NCBI GenBank assembly: GCA_012735575.1
Contig: JAAYGY010000008.1
Location: 1-36,646 of the forward strand
From: Clostridiales bacterium
Lineage (GTDB): Bacteria > Bacillota > Clostridia > Caldicoprobacterales > UBA3941
Reading direction: 5' to 3'
Length of the DNA: 36,646 nucleotides
Shown: positions 12,014-34,813 of the stretch, piece by piece
Numbering within the stretch: the first letter of the stretch is position 1
Layout of the letters: each line of letters starts with the position of its first letter
Made by a program: the position numbers and the translations under genes
Notes under the pieces: generated by a model
The model's database searches: none
Seen by the model: only the letters and a program-made list of their open reading frames with translations
What the model was told of the DNA's origin: nothing

Positions 12014-13006
12014 ATGATACAAAAGATAGAGAAAAAGCCAATAGATGCTTTGAATCCCATATTGGATGCACTGCCAGATAATTTAAAAAAGATTATTCTC
12101 TCAATAACCCCTACAATATTGAAAGACTTAGAAGAAATACGCATTCGTCAAGATCGTCCCCTCATGGTATATAGCCGTGGAAGGGACTATTTTCTATGTA
12201 GGAATGGACGTCTTACTCATCATGCTGACAATGCTTATATTGTATCTCAAGATGATATAAGAAGAACACTGGAGTTAATTTCAAGTTATTCTATTTATGC
12301 TTTTGAGGAAGAGCTACGTAACGGCTATATAACGCTGCAAGGGGGATACCGTGTTGGAATATCGGGAAAGGTTGTGTTAGGAAAAGAAGGAATTATATCT
12401 TTTCGGCATATAACTTCCTTTAATATAAGAATAGCCAGGGAAATCTTAAACGTAGCCAACAAAGTTTTACCCTTCATAATAGAAAATGGTCAAGTATTGC
12501 ATACCTTAATACTATCACCTCCGCAAATGGGGAAAACTACCTTGTTAAGGGATATATGTAGGCAGCTTAGCAATGGCTTTCCAGGTTTTGGTGGGGTCAA
12601 GATAGGAATTGTAGATGAGCGTTCCGAAATTGCAGGATGTTTTCAAGGAATCCCACAAAATGATGTAGGAGTTAGAACAGATATATTGGATGGATGTCCA
12701 AAAGCAATAGGTATTATTATGATGATACGTTCCATGTCACCAAATGTCATAATCACTGATGAAATAGGAAAACCCGAAGATGTTATGGCTATAGAAGATG
12801 CTTTAAATGCTGGTATAAAGATAATAACCTCTGCTCACAGTTCTGGATTAGATGATGCGCGAAGAAGACCAATCCTAAAGTCACTTATTGATAAGAATAT
12901 TTTCCAGAGAATATTGGTGCTGGGTAATAGTTTAGGAACGGGCACCTTAGAAAGGGTTTATGATGGTATTGATTGGAGTATATTATTAGATCATCCAGTT
13001 AGATAG
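12014..13006 (+). CDS. spoIIIAA: Stage III sporulation protein AA (ATPase)
   Basis: 330 aa, a secretion-type ATPase related to type II/IV secretion motors. It is the only ATPase of the SpoIIIA-SpoIIQ channel that links mother cell and forespore after engulfment. Motifs: Walker A SPPQMGKTTLLRD around residue 173, IGIVDERSEIAG, and Walker B VIITDEIGKPED, followed by the His box ITSAHSSG. The N-terminal LEEIRIRQDRPLMVYSRG and LQGGYRVGISGK are typical of SpoIIIAA. It starts the eight-gene operon. The cytosolic location in the mother cell is inferred from the family. Confidence 0.96.
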   Translation: MIQKIEKKPIDALNPILDALPDNLKKIILSITPTILKDLEEIRIRQDRPLMVYSRGRDYFLCRNGRLTHHADNAYIVSQDDIRRTLELISSYSIYAFEEELRNGYITLQGGYRVGISGKVVLGKEGIISFRHITSFNIRIAREILNVANKVLPFIIENGQVLHTLILSPPQMGKTTLLRDICRQLSNGFPGFGGVKIGIVDERSEIAGCFQGIPQNDVGVRTDILDGCPKAIGIIMMIRSMSPNVIITDEIGKPEDVMAIEDALNAGIKIITSAHSSGLDDARRRPILKSLIDKNIFQRILVLGNSLGTGTLERVYDGIDWSILLDHPVR

Positions 13007-13071
13007 TGTACCATTATTCTAGTTTCAAAAGTATAGCCTGATCTGAGGTTTTTATAAGAGGGAGTGATAAT

Positions 13072-13593
13072 GTGTTTCTAAAAATAGTATCTAGCATAAG
13101 CATTGTGGTTTGCTGTACTCTTTTAGGAATACATATGTCTAATAGATATGATCGGAGAATATATAATATAAGAGTTTTACAGAGCATACTAATTAATTTA
13201 GAAACAGAAATAGTATATTACTCCACCCTTTTATCTCAAGCTATAAGAAATTCAACTAGAAATTTAGAAGGAGACTGGAAAAATTTTTTCTTAGAAGTAG
13301 CCGATATTTTGGAATATAAAAAGGACTGCTCTTTTGCTGAAGTATGGAAAGAAACTTTGCAAGGAATAAAAAATTGTCCATACATAGGAAAAGGAGAGCT
13401 GGATATAATGTACCGATTTGGCTTGCAGCTTGGTAATAGCGATAGATTAAGCCAACGGAAATACTTTGAAATCGCGCAACAGCAATTAAAAACAGAAGAA
13501 AAAAATGCTCTACAACTTCACTTTCGTTATGGAAAAATGTATCGTAGCTTGGGATTATTATTAGGTCTAGGTATAGCCATTATATTGCTCTAG
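13072..13593 (+). CDS. spoIIIAB: Stage III sporulation protein AB
   Basis: 173 aa from GTG 13072, preceded by AGAGGGAG. It has a hydrophobic helix at the N-terminus (IVSSISIVVCCTLLGIHMS) and another at the C-terminus (LGLLLGLGIAIILL), with a helical cytoplasmic-type domain between, the GspF-related layout of SpoIIIAB. Typical family segments are LRVLQ-like RVLQSILINLETEIVYYSTLLSQA and GLQLGNSDRLSQRKYF. It would be the platform protein acting with the SpoIIIAA ATPase. A 65-bp gap separates it from spoIIIAA without a terminator. Confidence 0.93.
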   Translation: MFLKIVSSISIVVCCTLLGIHMSNRYDRRIYNIRVLQSILINLETEIVYYSTLLSQAIRNSTRNLEGDWKNFFLEVADILEYKKDCSFAEVWKETLQGIKNCPYIGKGELDIMYRFGLQLGNSDRLSQRKYFEIAQQQLKTEEKNALQLHFRYGKMYRSLGLLLGLGIAIILL

Positions 13594-13615
13594 TTTACGA
13601 ATGGAGGAAGCAAAA

Positions 13616-13813
13616 GTGAACATTGATATTATATTTAAGATAGCTGCGATTGGTATTTTGGTAGCAGTGGTAAATCAAGTTCTCTTAAGGGCAGGCAGAG
13701 AAGAAATAGCTATGTTGACTACCTTAACTGGCGTAATTGTAGTTCTATTAATGGTTGTCAACTTGATTAATGATTTATTCAACAGTGTGAGGAGTATTTT
13801 TCGCTTATACTAG
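13616..13813 (+). CDS. spoIIIAC: Stage III sporulation protein AC
   Basis: 65 aa, standard size. It has two transmembrane helices (IFKIAAIGILVAVVNQVLL and LTTLTGVIVVLLMVVNLI) joined by the conserved RAGREEIAMLT loop. GTG 13616 is preferred: the ATG at 13601 overlaps the GGAGG site at 13603, and starting at GTG gives the family-typical N-terminus. It is a small membrane subunit of the engulfment channel, homologous to part of SpoIIIAD. Confidence 0.93.
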   Translation: MNIDIIFKIAAIGILVAVVNQVLLRAGREEIAMLTTLTGVIVVLLMVVNLINDLFNSVRSIFRLY

Positions 13814-13851
13814 AGCTTATTCTAGAGAACTTAGAAAAAGGTGTTTATTTT

Positions 13852-14238
13852 ATGGATATCATTCAAATTGTTGGAATAGGTATTATTGCTGCTATTCTTT
13901 CTATGATTATAAAACAGCACAAACCAGAAATAGCCTTTCTAATAAGCATTGCTGCAGCTATTTTAATATTTTTTATTATAGCAAACAAGCTACCATATAT
14001 TGTTAATGTTTTTAACGATATCATCAACAAAACTCAAATTGATTCAGTATTTATATCAACACTATTAAAGATTGTTGGTGTGGCATACATCACTGAATTT
14101 GGATCACAGATATGCAAAGATATGGGTGAGAACAGTATAGCATCAAAAATAGAACTGGGCGGAAAAGTAATAATAATGATTTTAGGTTTGCCAATATTGA
14201 CTGCGCTTACTGAAACGATATTGGAAATATTACCATAA
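13852..14238 (+). CDS. spoIIIAD: Stage III sporulation protein AD
   Basis: 128 aa, standard length, four hydrophobic segments. The N-terminal half repeats the SpoIIIAC pattern (QIVGIGIIAAILSMII, HKPEIAFLISIAAAILIFF), and the C-terminal half has the conserved VGVAYITEFGSQICKDMGENSIASKIE stretch, abbreviated here to its start and end: VGVAYITEFG and SIASKIELGGK. It is a membrane subunit of the SpoIIIA channel. It lies 14 bp upstream of spoIIIAE and is intact. Confidence 0.94.
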   Translation: MDIIQIVGIGIIAAILSMIIKQHKPEIAFLISIAAAILIFFIIANKLPYIVNVFNDIINKTQIDSVFISTLLKIVGVAYITEFGSQICKDMGENSIASKIELGGKVIIMILGLPILTALTETILEILP

Positions 14239-14251
14239 GGGGTCTCTACAT

Positions 14252-15451
14252 ATGAGAAAATTAATAGTTATTAGCTTTGTTGTAATATTAACTCTAATTC
14301 CAGTAAACAAGGTAAAAGCATTGAATACAGAGGAAAGTAAAATTGACTTAAGAGAAGAAATAAAAAAAATAGCTGATGAGCTGCTTGATTTATTGAACTT
14401 TAATCAATGGGATCATGTTATTTAAGAGATAGACGATTATCAATTTAACTTATTAGAAAATGCAAATCTTAAAGAATTGATTATTGATCTTGCAACGGGA
14501 AGATTTGAAATAGATTGGAAACAAATATATGAGAATTTATGTAAGACCTTTTTATCAGAAATACGATTAAATTTATTACTTATGGCAAAGATCTTTGCCA
14601 TTGCTGTGGTTATCGGTATATTAGATAACTTTAAGTCAAATTTTAGCCATAGTACAATAGGAGAGTTAGCGTGGATGACATGCTACATGATGATAGTTGT
14701 TTTAATAATTCAGAGTGTGATACTAGTTCTCAATGTTGGTACAAATTCTATCGAACGAATGACTTCTTTTATGCAAATACTTTTTCCCACTCTTTTAGCT
14801 TTTCTTATTGGGATGGGTGGTATTGCTTCCTCTGGTATTATGCAGCCGGCTACAGTATTATTGACTGGGGTTACAGGAGTTTTTTTGAAAAATGTTATGA
14901 TCCCTCTAATACTATTGTCAGCTATACTAGTATTGATCAGTAATATTAATGAGAGTATAAGCTTAAAAAATTTAAGTAAGTTAACCAGGAATATTTGTTC
15001 ATGGATATTGGGAATAGTTTTTACTATTTTTATTGGAGTTCTTAGTGTACAGGGAATACTGGCAGCAACCTTTGATGGCATATCTATCCGTACTACAAAA
15101 TACGCTATAGAAACTTTTGTACCAGTAGTAGGTAAAATGTTTTCTCAAACAGTAGATGTTATTATTAGTTCATCCTTAATGCTAAAAAATGCAGTAGGTG
15201 TGCTGGGATTAATAGTAGCTATATCAGTTTGTCTATATCCCATATTAAAAATTTTTTCATTAATTGCAATTTATAAACTATCTGGTGCTTTGCTAGAGCC
15301 AATAAGCGATAAAAGAATTGTGTCTTGTTTAAATGAAATTGGTAGTGTGTTAGTCATACTCCTTGTGACATTGATTGGAATTGCAATAATGTTTTTTTTA
15401 ACAATAGCATTATTAATGGGAATAGGTAATATAACTGTAATGATGAGATAA
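14252..15451 (+). pseudogene. spoIIIAE: spoIIIAE, interrupted by an in-frame TAA at codon 58
   Basis: Read through, the gene has 400 codons, the normal size of the polytopic SpoIIIAE channel subunit. Codons 1-23 encode a signal peptide (MRKLIVISFVV ... VKA). Codon 58 (14423-14425) is TAA, in the sequence ...FNQWDHVI*EIDDYQFN... The downstream frame is undamaged: 324 residues from TTG 14477 with about seven membrane helices and conserved segments such as LLMAKIFAIAVVIGIL and GGIASSGIMQPATVLL. A single base change from CAA, GAA or AAA would explain it. No ribosome site precedes TTG 14477 and restart would lose the signal peptide. The other seven spoIIIA genes look intact, so this is recent, suppressed, or a sequencing error. 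Confidence 0.85.
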
Positions 15452-15463
15452 AGGTGAGTTTGA

Positions 15464-16063
15464 ATGATAAAACAATGGATTTTAAATATAATTGCAGTAG
15501 TTGTATTAGGAACACTGCTGGATATGGTTATACCCAGTGGAAATATAAAAAAATATACTAAGTTCTTTATTGGTCTTATTTCTATATTGGCAATTTTGCA
15601 ACCTATTATAAAGATGACTGGAAACATACCTCAATTAACAAAAGACATATGGATAAGACAATTAGATGCAGAGCTGGAAACTATGAGTATCGAAAGTAAA
15701 GATTTAGAAAAAAGCCAGGAAAAATACTTACTGGAGCTATATAAAAGCAGATTAGAGGAGGATATAATCAATAGACTTAACCAGTATGTACCTGATTCAG
15801 AGGTTTTAGTAATTGCTACACTGGAGAAGGTTGAAGGGCAAGAAATGTTTTTATTAAGTCGTATTGATATTAACATAGGTCCTTCAAAACAGGTAAATAT
15901 TGAACCAGTAGAGATAATCGTAGGCGATAGATTATCAGAGGGAGGAAGTTTTAATTCTCAAATAAATAACCAAGAGGTTGATAAAAACTTTGAAACAATA
16001 AAGGAGTATATTTCTAATACTTATGAAATTGACAAATCAAGAATATACATAAATAAGAAATAG
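15464..16063 (+). CDS. spoIIIAF: Stage III sporulation protein AF
   Basis: 199 aa. It has two N-terminal transmembrane helices (WILNIIAVVVLGTLLDMVIPSG, abbreviated WILNIIAVVVLGTLLDM, and FFIGLISILAILQPII) with the conserved G-x-x-x-KYTKF linker, then a charged helical region and a C-terminal ring-building-motif-like alpha/beta domain (EVLVIATLEK, INIGPSKQVNI, IKEYISNTYEID). It starts 13 bp after spoIIIAE. It is predicted to form a ring in the mother-cell side of the intermembrane space, by analogy with SpoIIIAG and AH. Confidence 0.93.
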   Translation: MIKQWILNIIAVVVLGTLLDMVIPSGNIKKYTKFFIGLISILAILQPIIKMTGNIPQLTKDIWIRQLDAELETMSIESKDLEKSQEKYLLELYKSRLEEDIINRLNQYVPDSEVLVIATLEKVEGQEMFLLSRIDINIGPSKQVNIEPVEIIVGDRLSEGGSFNSQINNQEVDKNFETIKEYISNTYEIDKSRIYINKK

Positions 16064-16088
16064 AAATACATATGATAAGGAGGCTATT

Positions 16089-16691
16089 ATGGAAGAAAAA
16101 AAAGGTCTAAAAGACTTAATAACTAGATTTAAGCAAATTAAAAATATCGAATTAATACTTGCTATTCTAGTAATCTCCATTGTTATAAGTATCTATATTT
16201 CTACAATAGACAAACCATCTGAAATTGATCAAAATGAGTATGATCAAAACAATGAAACAAGCGATTTACACTGGATAGATAATAATAGTACTAGTGAAAA
16301 TAGGGATGAACAAAGATTAAAAGAAATATTGTCAGCTATAAAAGGTGCAGGAAAAGTAGAAGTTATGATAACTTATAGCTCTGGAAAAGAAATTATACCA
16401 GCTATGAATACAGTTGAATCAACTACCATTACTGAGGAAGAAGATAATAATGGGGGTACAAGAAAGATTAATCAAACAGATAAAAATTTTCAACCATCAA
16501 CTTATAGTGATTCGGAAGGTTCAAAACCTATAATCTTAAAGGAGGTGGAACCAGAAATTAAAGGTGTAATTATTATTGCTCAAGGTGCCGAAGATGTCCG
16601 GGTAAAAATGGAACTTATGCGGGCAGTACAAGTTGCTTTAGGTATAAAGCCTAGTCAAGTTGAAGTTTTTCCAATGGAACAAGGTAATTAG
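16089..16691 (+). CDS. spoIIIAG: Stage III sporulation protein AG
   Basis: 200 aa. It has a cytoplasmic tail, one transmembrane helix at about residues 21-40 (IELILAILVISIVISIYIS) and a ring-building-motif domain. The segments LKEILSAIKGAGKVEVMITYSSG, here recognisable as ILSAIKGAGKVEVMITYSSG, and VKMELMRAVQVALGI are characteristic. SpoIIIAG forms a large ring in the intermembrane space in B. subtilis. Preceded by AAGGAGG. Size and order are normal. Confidence 0.95.
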   Translation: MEEKKGLKDLITRFKQIKNIELILAILVISIVISIYISTIDKPSEIDQNEYDQNNETSDLHWIDNNSTSENRDEQRLKEILSAIKGAGKVEVMITYSSGKEIIPAMNTVESTTITEEEDNNGGTRKINQTDKNFQPSTYSDSEGSKPIILKEVEPEIKGVIIIAQGAEDVRVKMELMRAVQVALGIKPSQVEVFPMEQGN

Positions 16692-16706
16692 GAGGGTTAA
16701 GAAAAT

Positions 16707-17291
16707 ATGCTAACAGTAAAAAGAAAAAATCTAGTTTTGGGCATGTTAGTAGTTCTTCTCGTTATTACAGGGTATTTGAACTTTGTATACAATCAAAATG
16801 CTATTAAAGAACAAGGGAATAAAGAGCTGATAGATGATAATACCAATAAGCCAGCTGTAACTGTTAATGATGTGTTTGAAGCGAAATCTGATAACGAAAA
16901 TTCGAACGCATCCCCAGATGCTGTTAATACATCTAGTAGTGGAGGTTTCTTTGTGGAGTACCGTTTTGAAAGAGAGAATACCAGAAAGAAAGAAATAGAT
17001 TACATAAAGGAAATAGTTGATAATCCCAATTCTGAGGTTGAAATGAAAAATGAAGCACAGCAAAAACTGTTAGAAATCACATCCAATATGGAGAAAGAAT
17101 TAAATATAGAAGGGCTTTTAAAAGCAAAGGGGTTCAATAACTCTATTGTTATATTCAATCAGGATTATGTAAGTGTTATAGTGGATAAGCAAGAACTGGC
17201 ACCTGAAGAAGTGGCACAAATTTTGGATATAGTCAAACAAGAATCTGGTAAAGAGGCGGATAGTATAAAAATAATTCCAACAAGCCAATGA
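16707..17291 (+). CDS. spoIIIAH: Stage III sporulation protein AH
   Basis: 194 aa, bitopic. The TM helix is at residues about 8-26 (LVLGMLVVLLVITGYLNF), followed by a low-complexity Asn/Ser linker and a YscJ/FliF-like C-terminal domain (ENTRKKEIDYIKEIVDNPN; IVIFNQDYVSVIVDKQELAPEE read in two parts: IVIFNQDYVSVIV and ELAPEEVAQILDIV). SpoIIIAH binds SpoIIQ from the forespore across the septum. It is the last gene of the operon and is followed by a probable terminator. Confidence 0.95.
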   Translation: MLTVKRKNLVLGMLVVLLVITGYLNFVYNQNAIKEQGNKELIDDNTNKPAVTVNDVFEAKSDNENSNASPDAVNTSSSGGFFVEYRFERENTRKKEIDYIKEIVDNPNSEVEMKNEAQQKLLEITSNMEKELNIEGLLKAKGFNNSIVIFNQDYVSVIVDKQELAPEEVAQILDIVKQESGKEADSIKIIPTSQ

Positions 17292-32197: not shown

Positions 32198-34813
32198 TTA
32201 CAGCTCCTTGCTATCTTTAGATTTTTCAACCAGTCGATGCAATATATTCATAGCTTCAATAGGGGTTAAATTGAGTATATCAATATTTCTAAGCTCCTCT
32301 TCAATTTCTGAGGGTTTAGGTTGGAAAAAAGATAATTGTATATTATTCTCTTCTAACCCTACAACTTTTTTATCTCTCTGCATATCAACTTCTTCCAACT
32401 TCTCTAAAATGCTAGTAGCTCTATTGATTACTTTATAGGGTAGTCCAGCTAATCTTGCAATTTGAATCCCAAGACTTTTTTCAGCTCCTCCTCTTACTAT
32501 TTTCCTTAGAAATATAATATCATTACCCTGTTCTTTTACAGTAATATAATAATTTTTTACACCATCTAGTTTGCCTTCTAATTCAGTTAGTTCATGATAA
32601 TGGGTAGCAAACAAGGTTTTGCATCCTAAATTTTTTTCCTTGCAAATATACTCTATAACCGCCCATGCAATACTAAGTCCATCGTAAGTACTGGTTCCTC
32701 TACCGATCTCATCTAAAATAAGTATACTTTTTGGAGTTGCATTGTGAAGGATATTGGCTAATTCGCTCATTTCAACCATGAAGGTGCTTTGACCAGCAGA
32801 TAGATCATCTGAGGCACCTACTCTTGTAAAGATTCTATCTACAATCCCGATATGTGCCTTGCTGGCAGGCACGAAGCTTCCAATTTGTGCCATGAGTACA
32901 ATTAAAGCCACTTGCCGCATGTATGTGCTCTTTCCAGCCATATTAGGACCAGTTATAATTGCTATTCGATTTTCTCTATTATCTAGATAGGTATGATTTG
33001 GCACAAAAAGTTCATTAGGCAATGTCTTCTCTACAACTGGATGGCGGCCATCTCGTATATCAATTACGTCTCCATCATCAATAGATGGTCTAACATAATT
33101 ATTTTCTTGTGCTACACGGGCTAAGGACCATAAAACATCTAATTTAGAGATTACTTGAGCAGTTTTTTGAATTCGCTTTACTTGGCTAGCAATCTTCTCA
33201 CGAATATCAACAAAAAGCTTATATTCTAAATCTATACTTTTTTCTTCAGCACCTAAAATAGTTTCTTCTACTTCTTTTAATTCTGAGGTTATATATCTTT
33301 CCGAATTAGCTAGAGTTTGTTTTCTTATATAATCATCTGGAACAAGATCATAATAAGATTTTGTAACATCAATATAATAACCAAAAACTTTATTAAAACC
33401 AATTTTTAAATTTTTTATTCCAGTTCGTTCTCTCTCTTTTTTCTCTAGTTCAGCTAGCCAGTCCTTACCTTTAGTCATAGCTAGACGATATTTGTCCAAT
33501 TCTTCGTTATAGCCATCTTTTATTATGGAACCTTCCCTTAAGGTTATAGGTGGATCCTCATCAATAGAAACTTCTATTAATTGAAAAATATCTTCAAGGA
33601 TGTCCAATTCATTGTAAAAACTACCGAGAATAATGGATTTAAATTGGCCTAACACTTGTTTTATGCCAGGGAGCATAGCAAGGGATTGCTTAAGGGATAT
33701 AAGATCTCTTGCATTGGCATTTCCGTAAGAAATTCTGCCTATTAGCCGCTCCAAATCATAAATATTTCTTAAATTAAGTCTAAGCTCCTCCATAGCTATA
33801 GGATTGTTATATAACTCCTCTACTCCATCTAGCCTCTCAATAATAAGAGATGAATTCGTAAGAGGTTGTTGTATCCATTGCCTTAAAATACGCCCTCCCA
33901 TTGCGGTATTGGTCTTATCAAGTAACCAAAGCAATGATCCCTTTTTATTTTTGTTTCGCATGGTTTCCGTTAACTCTAAATTGCGGCGAGTTGCTACATC
34001 CAATAGCATCGTTGATTGAGTATGGTAAGGTTTAATGGCGGTAATATGTTTCAGGGAGCTTTTTTGAGTATCGCTTAGATAGCTTAATAGTGCACCTGCT
34101 GCACTGATTCCAATGGACATATCCTGGAATCCAAAGCCTTCTAAAGAATATATTTTAAAATGATCAACAATTTTTTGATAAGCAATATTATATTCAAAAG
34201 CCCAGGGATCATAAGGTGTAATAGTTGCATTAATTTTATTATTCTTAATAAGCTCAATATCAGATTCAGCCTCTTTTTGGATAATTACCTCACTCGGTAT
34301 AATACCTGATATTATATCTACTACTTTTTCTGCGGCTTTCTCCTCTTCTAGAATTTCACAAACATAAAATTCACCTGTTGATATATCTGCCCACGATAAA
34401 CCGAAGTTTTCCCCGTTTTTTATGATGGACAAAATATAATTATTGGTTTTTTCATCTAACATGGAGGATTCTAGCAAGGTTCCAGGTGTGATTACCCTAA
34501 CCACATCCCGTTCAACAATTCCCTTGGCTTCAGAAGGATCCTGGACTTGCTCACAAATAGCTACTTTATATCCTTTTTCAATAAGTTTTGCTATATAGCC
34601 TTCTGCAGAATGATATGGAACTCCACACATAGGAGCCCTTTCAGGTAAACCACAATCTCTGCCAGTAAGAGTAATTTCAAGTTCTTTAGAGGCTATTTTG
34701 GCATCTTAAAAGAACATTTCATAAAAATCGCCTAATCTAAAAAAAAGAAGAGCATCCTTATATTGCTCTTTGATTTGCATATATTGTTGCATCATTGGCG
34801 TCAATTTAGACAT
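32198..34813 (-). pseudogene. mutS: mutS, interrupted by an in-frame TAA at codon 36
   Basis: Read through, 872 codons with all MutS domains: [20 protein letters not shown] at the start, the lesion-sensing GDFYEMFF motif, CGVPYHSAEGY, connector, lever, clamp, and the ATPase domain with Walker A ITGPNMAGKST, DEIGRGTSTYDG and ATHYHELTEL. Codon 36 (34708-34706) is TAA exactly where the family has Glu in FFEDAK, one base from GAA. The frame is otherwise open. Restart is possible at ATG 34630 (810 aa from MCGVPYHSAEGY), but that product would lack the Phe-x-Glu that wedges into mismatches and has no good ribosome site. Lost mismatch recognition is the plain reading; sequencing error or suppression remain possible. 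Confidence 0.9.

Follow-up and report, generated by a model that had tools for sequence, protein, structure and literature searches.

Null mutants of spoIIIAE have been described in Bacillus subtilis and Bacillus anthracis, and in both of them the forespore is not maintained and sporulation is blocked (PMC2703783, PMC12700454). When SpoIIIAE is cut 5-10-fold in B. subtilis, sporulation is near-normal (PMC2703783). It is also known that under relaxed selection sporulation is easily lost through mutation (PMC5748526, PMC12890906), and for such a loss in B. subtilis populations these two papers cite Maughan et al. (2007). Non-sporogenous firmicutes retain Spo0A and many other sporulation genes, and a single mutated gene may decide the phenotype (PMC3533761).

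The stretch of DNA analysed here (the window) is contig 44 of the draft genome of a Clostridia-type bacterium, 36,646 bases out of a total of 2.59 Mb in 105 contigs, and it holds a spoIIIA operon in which the spoIIIAE gene is cut by an in-frame TAA. The stop of this nonsense allele is most likely either a plain loss-of-function mutation or an error of the draft assembly, and not a case of special decoding.

The spoIIIA operon and its interrupted gene

The operon spans positions 12014-17291 and consists of eight genes on the plus strand, the fifth of which is spoIIIAE, between AD and AF. The sequence-only reading took the other seven to be intact, and all seven are indeed open: spoIIIAA (12014-13006, TIGR02858), spoIIIAB (13072-13593, TIGR02833, below the curated cut-off), spoIIIAC (13601-13813, TIGR02848), spoIIIAD (13852-14238, TIGR02849), spoIIIAF (15464-16063, TIGR02896), spoIIIAG (16089-16691, TIGR02830, below the curated cut-off) and spoIIIAH (16707-17291). 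The first six match NCBIfam models; spoIIIAH, for which there was no NCBIfam match at 0.001, was assigned by its position and by 71-83% identity to the gene in the same place in relatives. Elsewhere in the draft, two Spo0A genes, SpoIVA, SpoVAD and SigK are intact as well.

The spoIIIAE gene (14252-15451, plus strand) is open apart from a TAA at 14423-14425, which is codon 58 in frame with the ATG at 14252. The 57 codons that precede it (14252-14422) encode an N-terminus that resembles a signal peptide (MRKLIVISFVVILTLIPVNKVKA...), followed by the initial part of the N-terminal region, and could be aligned to 29 relatives. The remainder (14426-15451) encodes the membrane domain and ends in a normal terminator, TAA, at 15449-15451; it had been counted as 342 codons, of which 341 (14426-15448) are sense codons. 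That the frame is continuous with a normal SpoIIIAE is borne out by the read-through protein, which scores 317 bits against TIGR02829 (curated cut-off 247.45), covers model positions 1-379 of 381 and matches Pfam Spore_III_AE, and the part after the stop gives 306.9 bits by itself. The TAA is a real interruption of the coding frame, since a dicodon scan finds coding score on either side of it and relatives that have no stop can be aligned along the frame of 399 codons; the single uninterrupted frame of a SpoIIIAE of the TIGR02829 type is not found here. No second copy of spoIIIAE was found in the draft genome, in which the gene is single-copy. The longest open reading frame with a start codon 3' of the stop (14477-15451) begins with TTG and would encode 324 amino acids without a signal peptide, and neither inspection nor the dicodon scan revealed a clear ribosome-binding site before that TTG.

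Comparison with relatives and selection

The sequence-only reading had posed the question of whether relatives carry Q, E or K at the position of the stop. In the alignment with 29 relatives, the residue is mostly lysine or arginine, and the column contains K (12), R (7), E (4), N (2), D (2), Q (1) and G (1). The single congener compared has AAA (Lys), and among four further members of the family three have lysine (AAA) and one asparagine (AAT). With residues that vary and are charged or polar, this is not a site of special function. The lesion is a nonsense difference of one base in a gene that has a single copy. A frameshift or an insertion was ruled out, as the frame aligns one-to-one with that of the congener.

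Within the order, 30 genomes were searched and 29 matched, 28 of the 29 being free of stops, and no relative had a stop within its spoIIIAE match; there was also none among 51 matching genomes of a wider set. The gene therefore carries a disabling lesion that is absent from the orthologues of its relatives, as is expected of a pseudogene or null allele. As a separate observation, three order-level relatives (G020:C6, G021:C93 and G028:C32) have spoIIIAE matches that are split in two with altered spacing. These are probably frameshifted, interrupted or insertion-bearing genes, so that lesions of spoIIIAE appear to occur in other drafts too.

The part of spoIIIAE that follows the stop has a dN/dS of about 0.09 relative to the congener (dN 0.109, dS 1.17), which resembles that of the neighbouring spoIIIAA, spoIIIAG and spoIIIAH, and the window-specific changes in the gene (12 vs 6) are not distinguishable from those in other genes (35 vs 31). 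Apart from the TAA at codon 58 there is no further lesion in spoIIIAE. An old pseudogene was rejected on the neighbour-like dN/dS together with the lack of further lesions. Given that the remaining spoIIIA genes and the tested sporulation genes are intact, and that spoIIIAE is still under purifying selection, we infer that the lesion, if real, is a loss of function of recent origin.

In-gene stops in the window and across the draft genome

The TAA had been described as a lone one, which holds for spoIIIAE and does not hold for the window, where a second in-frame TAA interrupts mutS (32198-34813, minus strand). NF003810/TIGR01070 matches the downstream part of this gene, and the read-through protein contains all the MutS Pfam domains. 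The stop is codon 36 (34708-34706 on the minus strand), three codons past the FYE motif, at a position that is E, D or Q in relatives. A start downstream of it would lose this mismatch-contact motif, and for that reason the mutS stop, if real, predicts a mutator.

In-gene stops were surveyed by dicodon score over 2.09 of the 2.59 Mb (about 81% of the draft), and candidates were checked with Pfam or NCBIfam on the read-through frames; the scan is not exhaustive, given that it missed the mutS stop. About 20 in-gene stops were found, roughly 10 TAA, 6 TAG and 4 TGA, shares that are close to the TAA:TAG:TGA ratio of 42:34:25 expected from uniform random substitution on the codon usage of this genome. 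Many other hits proved to be normal ends of genes, genes lying downstream or shadows on the antisense strand and were discarded, as were L078/L150, which are duplicates. A control scan of 198 kb of relatives returned four candidates, none of which resembled an in-gene stop on inspection; about two would have been expected, so this control is weak.

The interrupted genes are diverse. In mutS2 (L045, G000:C10, 2113, minus strand), which is intact in 12 of 12 relatives searched, a TAA lies within the MutS_V ATPase domain and the domain match spans it. A gene for an EAL-domain signalling protein (L054, G000:C19, 6034 and 5800, minus strand) has two in-frame stops, TAG and TAA, confirmed by the domain, and is the strongest pseudogene candidate of the survey. 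Two EF-G-like GTPase paralogues of the ribosomal-protection type, on different contigs (L071, G000:C32, 977, and L130, G000:C54, 4588, both minus strand), have a single stop each, one TAA and one TGA, with the GTPase domain spanning it. The domain also confirms a TAG in ksgA (L207, G000:C34, about 27286, plus strand) and another in one of two mnmA copies (L201, G000:C30, about 63745, minus strand), the second copy being intact. Domains likewise extend across a TAA in a LacI regulator, a DUF4417 protein and a nickel-pincer-cofactor isomerase-like protein, across a TGA in a DUF3626 protein and across a TAG in a sensor histidine kinase, and a flagellin has a TAG between its two conserved ends. 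The second spore-related gene with a stop, beside spoIIIAE, encodes a SleB-like spore cortex hydrolase (L143, G000:C67, 16156, plus strand), with an in-frame TGA past the signal peptide that is spanned by a model match below the cut-off. Four stops are less certain, because they precede the modelled domain or were seen in the scan only: those of a GH127 enzyme (TAG), a GGDEF protein (TAA), a sugar-transporter permease (TAA) and CooS, the catalytic subunit of the anaerobic CO dehydrogenase (L187, G000:C15, about 52529, minus strand), in which the TGA is codon 67 of the open stretch and precedes the region covered by TIGR01702.

Frameshifts are few, about three being convincing in a scan that is less sensitive than that for stops. 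The likely ones, named from sequence only, affect an HtrA-like protease (L205, 7342), a methylenetetrahydrofolate-reductase-like protein (L158, 6798) and the membrane subunit of a decarboxylase (L155, 4624), all on the minus strand.

Null allele, draft error or special decoding

The alternatives offered from the sequence alone were an asporogenous strain or a stop that is read through; the first, in the sense of a loss of function, is reasonable in view of the null mutants already cited, and the second finds no support. Programmed readthrough of the spoIIIAE TAA is very unlikely and recoding is ruled out, because stops of all three kinds interrupt genes, TAA is the main terminator, and neither a suppressor tRNA, nor an RNA structure, nor conservation of the stop was found. 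The 39 tRNA places of the genome, all of them within the sequence analysed, include none with anticodon UUA, CUA or UCA, folding of the RNA that surrounds the stop is no stronger than that of its shuffles (z +1.19), TAA ends 633 of 1062 long open reading frames, spoIIIAE itself included, and a literature search found no report of stop readthrough in sporulation. A real stop past which enough SpoIIIAE is still made for sporulation, by readthrough or from a downstream start, could draw on the near-normal sporulation of B. subtilis with 5-10-fold less of the protein, on the tolerance of position 58 to many residues and on the fact that the frame from the TTG at 14477 includes the entire membrane domain. 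However, the use of TAA as the commonest terminator, the missing tRNA and structure, the downstream start that lacks a signal peptide and a clear ribosome-binding site, and the relatives without a stop at codon 58 make such a rescue very improbable. A changed genetic code, or a general suppression in which TAA is read as an amino acid, deserves hardly any credence: the two TAA stops in the window and the ten or so TAA among the in-gene stops are what it would produce, but TAG and TGA interrupt genes in their expected share, most long open reading frames end in TAA, and about twenty genes are affected and no more.

There remain a mutation and an error. A draft error was not among the explanations listed in the sequence-only reading, although it asked for verification at the level of reads. 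The TAA may be a base error, or the base of a minority strain, in the consensus of a draft of metagenome type and hence not be in the organism, in which case the mutS stop would share this origin with many further in-gene stops; we give this somewhat less than an even chance. The genome is a draft in 105 contigs, and the named relatives closest to it are metagenome bins that carry the label Clostridiales or Firmicutes. About twenty stops in unrelated genes, among them the conserved mutS, mutS2, ksgA and cooS, with few frameshifts, tell against a null allele, as wrong bases in a consensus of thin coverage would also produce them. In fact, the shares of the three stops and the scarcity of frameshifts fit random substitutions of either kind, consensus errors or young mutations in dispensable genes. 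Since 95% of random substitutions in coding sequence create no stop (computed from the codon usage of the genome), some twenty nonsense errors would correspond to a total of about 430 errors in coding sequence, or around 2 per 10 kb, which would be plausible at low coverage. Against an error, none of the roughly twenty genes interrupted in the 2.09 Mb is one whose loss is expected to be lethal, where about three would be expected if about 15% of the coding sequence is essential (a rough estimate); this is the pattern of true mutations and weakly favours them, as do, also weakly, the two stops in one EAL-domain gene, as in a real pseudogene. Moreover, the contig of 36.6 kb contains long uninterrupted genes, no further fault is visible in it, and the completeness and contamination of the draft are 96.3% and 0.14%.

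Taken together, these observations place a real, ordinary single-base nonsense null allele, without special decoding, just on the favourable side of even, with the intact remainder of spoIIIA and the intact Spo0A, SpoIVA, SpoVAD and SigK genes in its support. If the TAA is present in the cells, translation would end after an exported stub of 57 residues and the membrane part of SpoIIIAE would not be produced in useful amounts, while translation of the remaining spoIIIA genes should proceed from their own start sites. The SpoIIIA-SpoIIQ channel, which links the mother cell to the forespore, would then be left incomplete, the activity of the forespore would collapse after engulfment, and sporulation would fail without yielding spores. 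By analogy with the known null mutants, a real stop would thus probably block the completion of the spore.

Mismatch repair and sporulation

If the stops are real, it is possible, though in our judgement unlikely, that the lineage recently lost mismatch repair (mutS, mutS2) and late sporulation and germination functions (spoIIIAE, the SleB-like hydrolase) together. The loss of mismatch repair is expected to produce mostly transitions, and under a strong transition bias (kappa 10-20) 60-75% of new stops are computed to be transitions. In an informal count by eye against the family consensus, transitions account for only about two of the dozen stops that could be assigned, too few for a mutator origin of the stops, which is not favoured. 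Were the joint loss true, the mostly non-transition stops would predate the mutator state or be independent of it, and the lineage would be a wild counterpart of the laboratory loss of sporulation.

Comparison with known systems

If the spoIIIAE stop is in the cells, the organism would be a non-spore-former with a nearly whole set of sporulation genes, which predictions based on gene presence would miss; if it is a draft error, it is a caution against giving biological meaning to stops of a single base in such drafts before reads have been consulted. The mutS stop poses the same question for the mutation rate.

With the standard SpoIIIAE (TIGR02829) the gene of the window shares a read-through protein that spans the whole model and the fifth place in an eight-gene spoIIIA operon, and it differs in the TAA that interrupts it at codon 58, before the conserved membrane domain begins. 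The gene content also resembles that of non-sporogenous firmicutes (PMC3533761) in that Spo0A, SpoIVA, SpoVAD, SigK and most of spoIIIA are present. The likeness to the B. subtilis populations of Maughan et al. (2007, as cited in PMC5748526 and PMC12890906) would be that of a single lesion in a core gene of sporulation, the other parts of the pathway being intact; those populations were followed in culture, whereas the gene described here is known from a draft genome.
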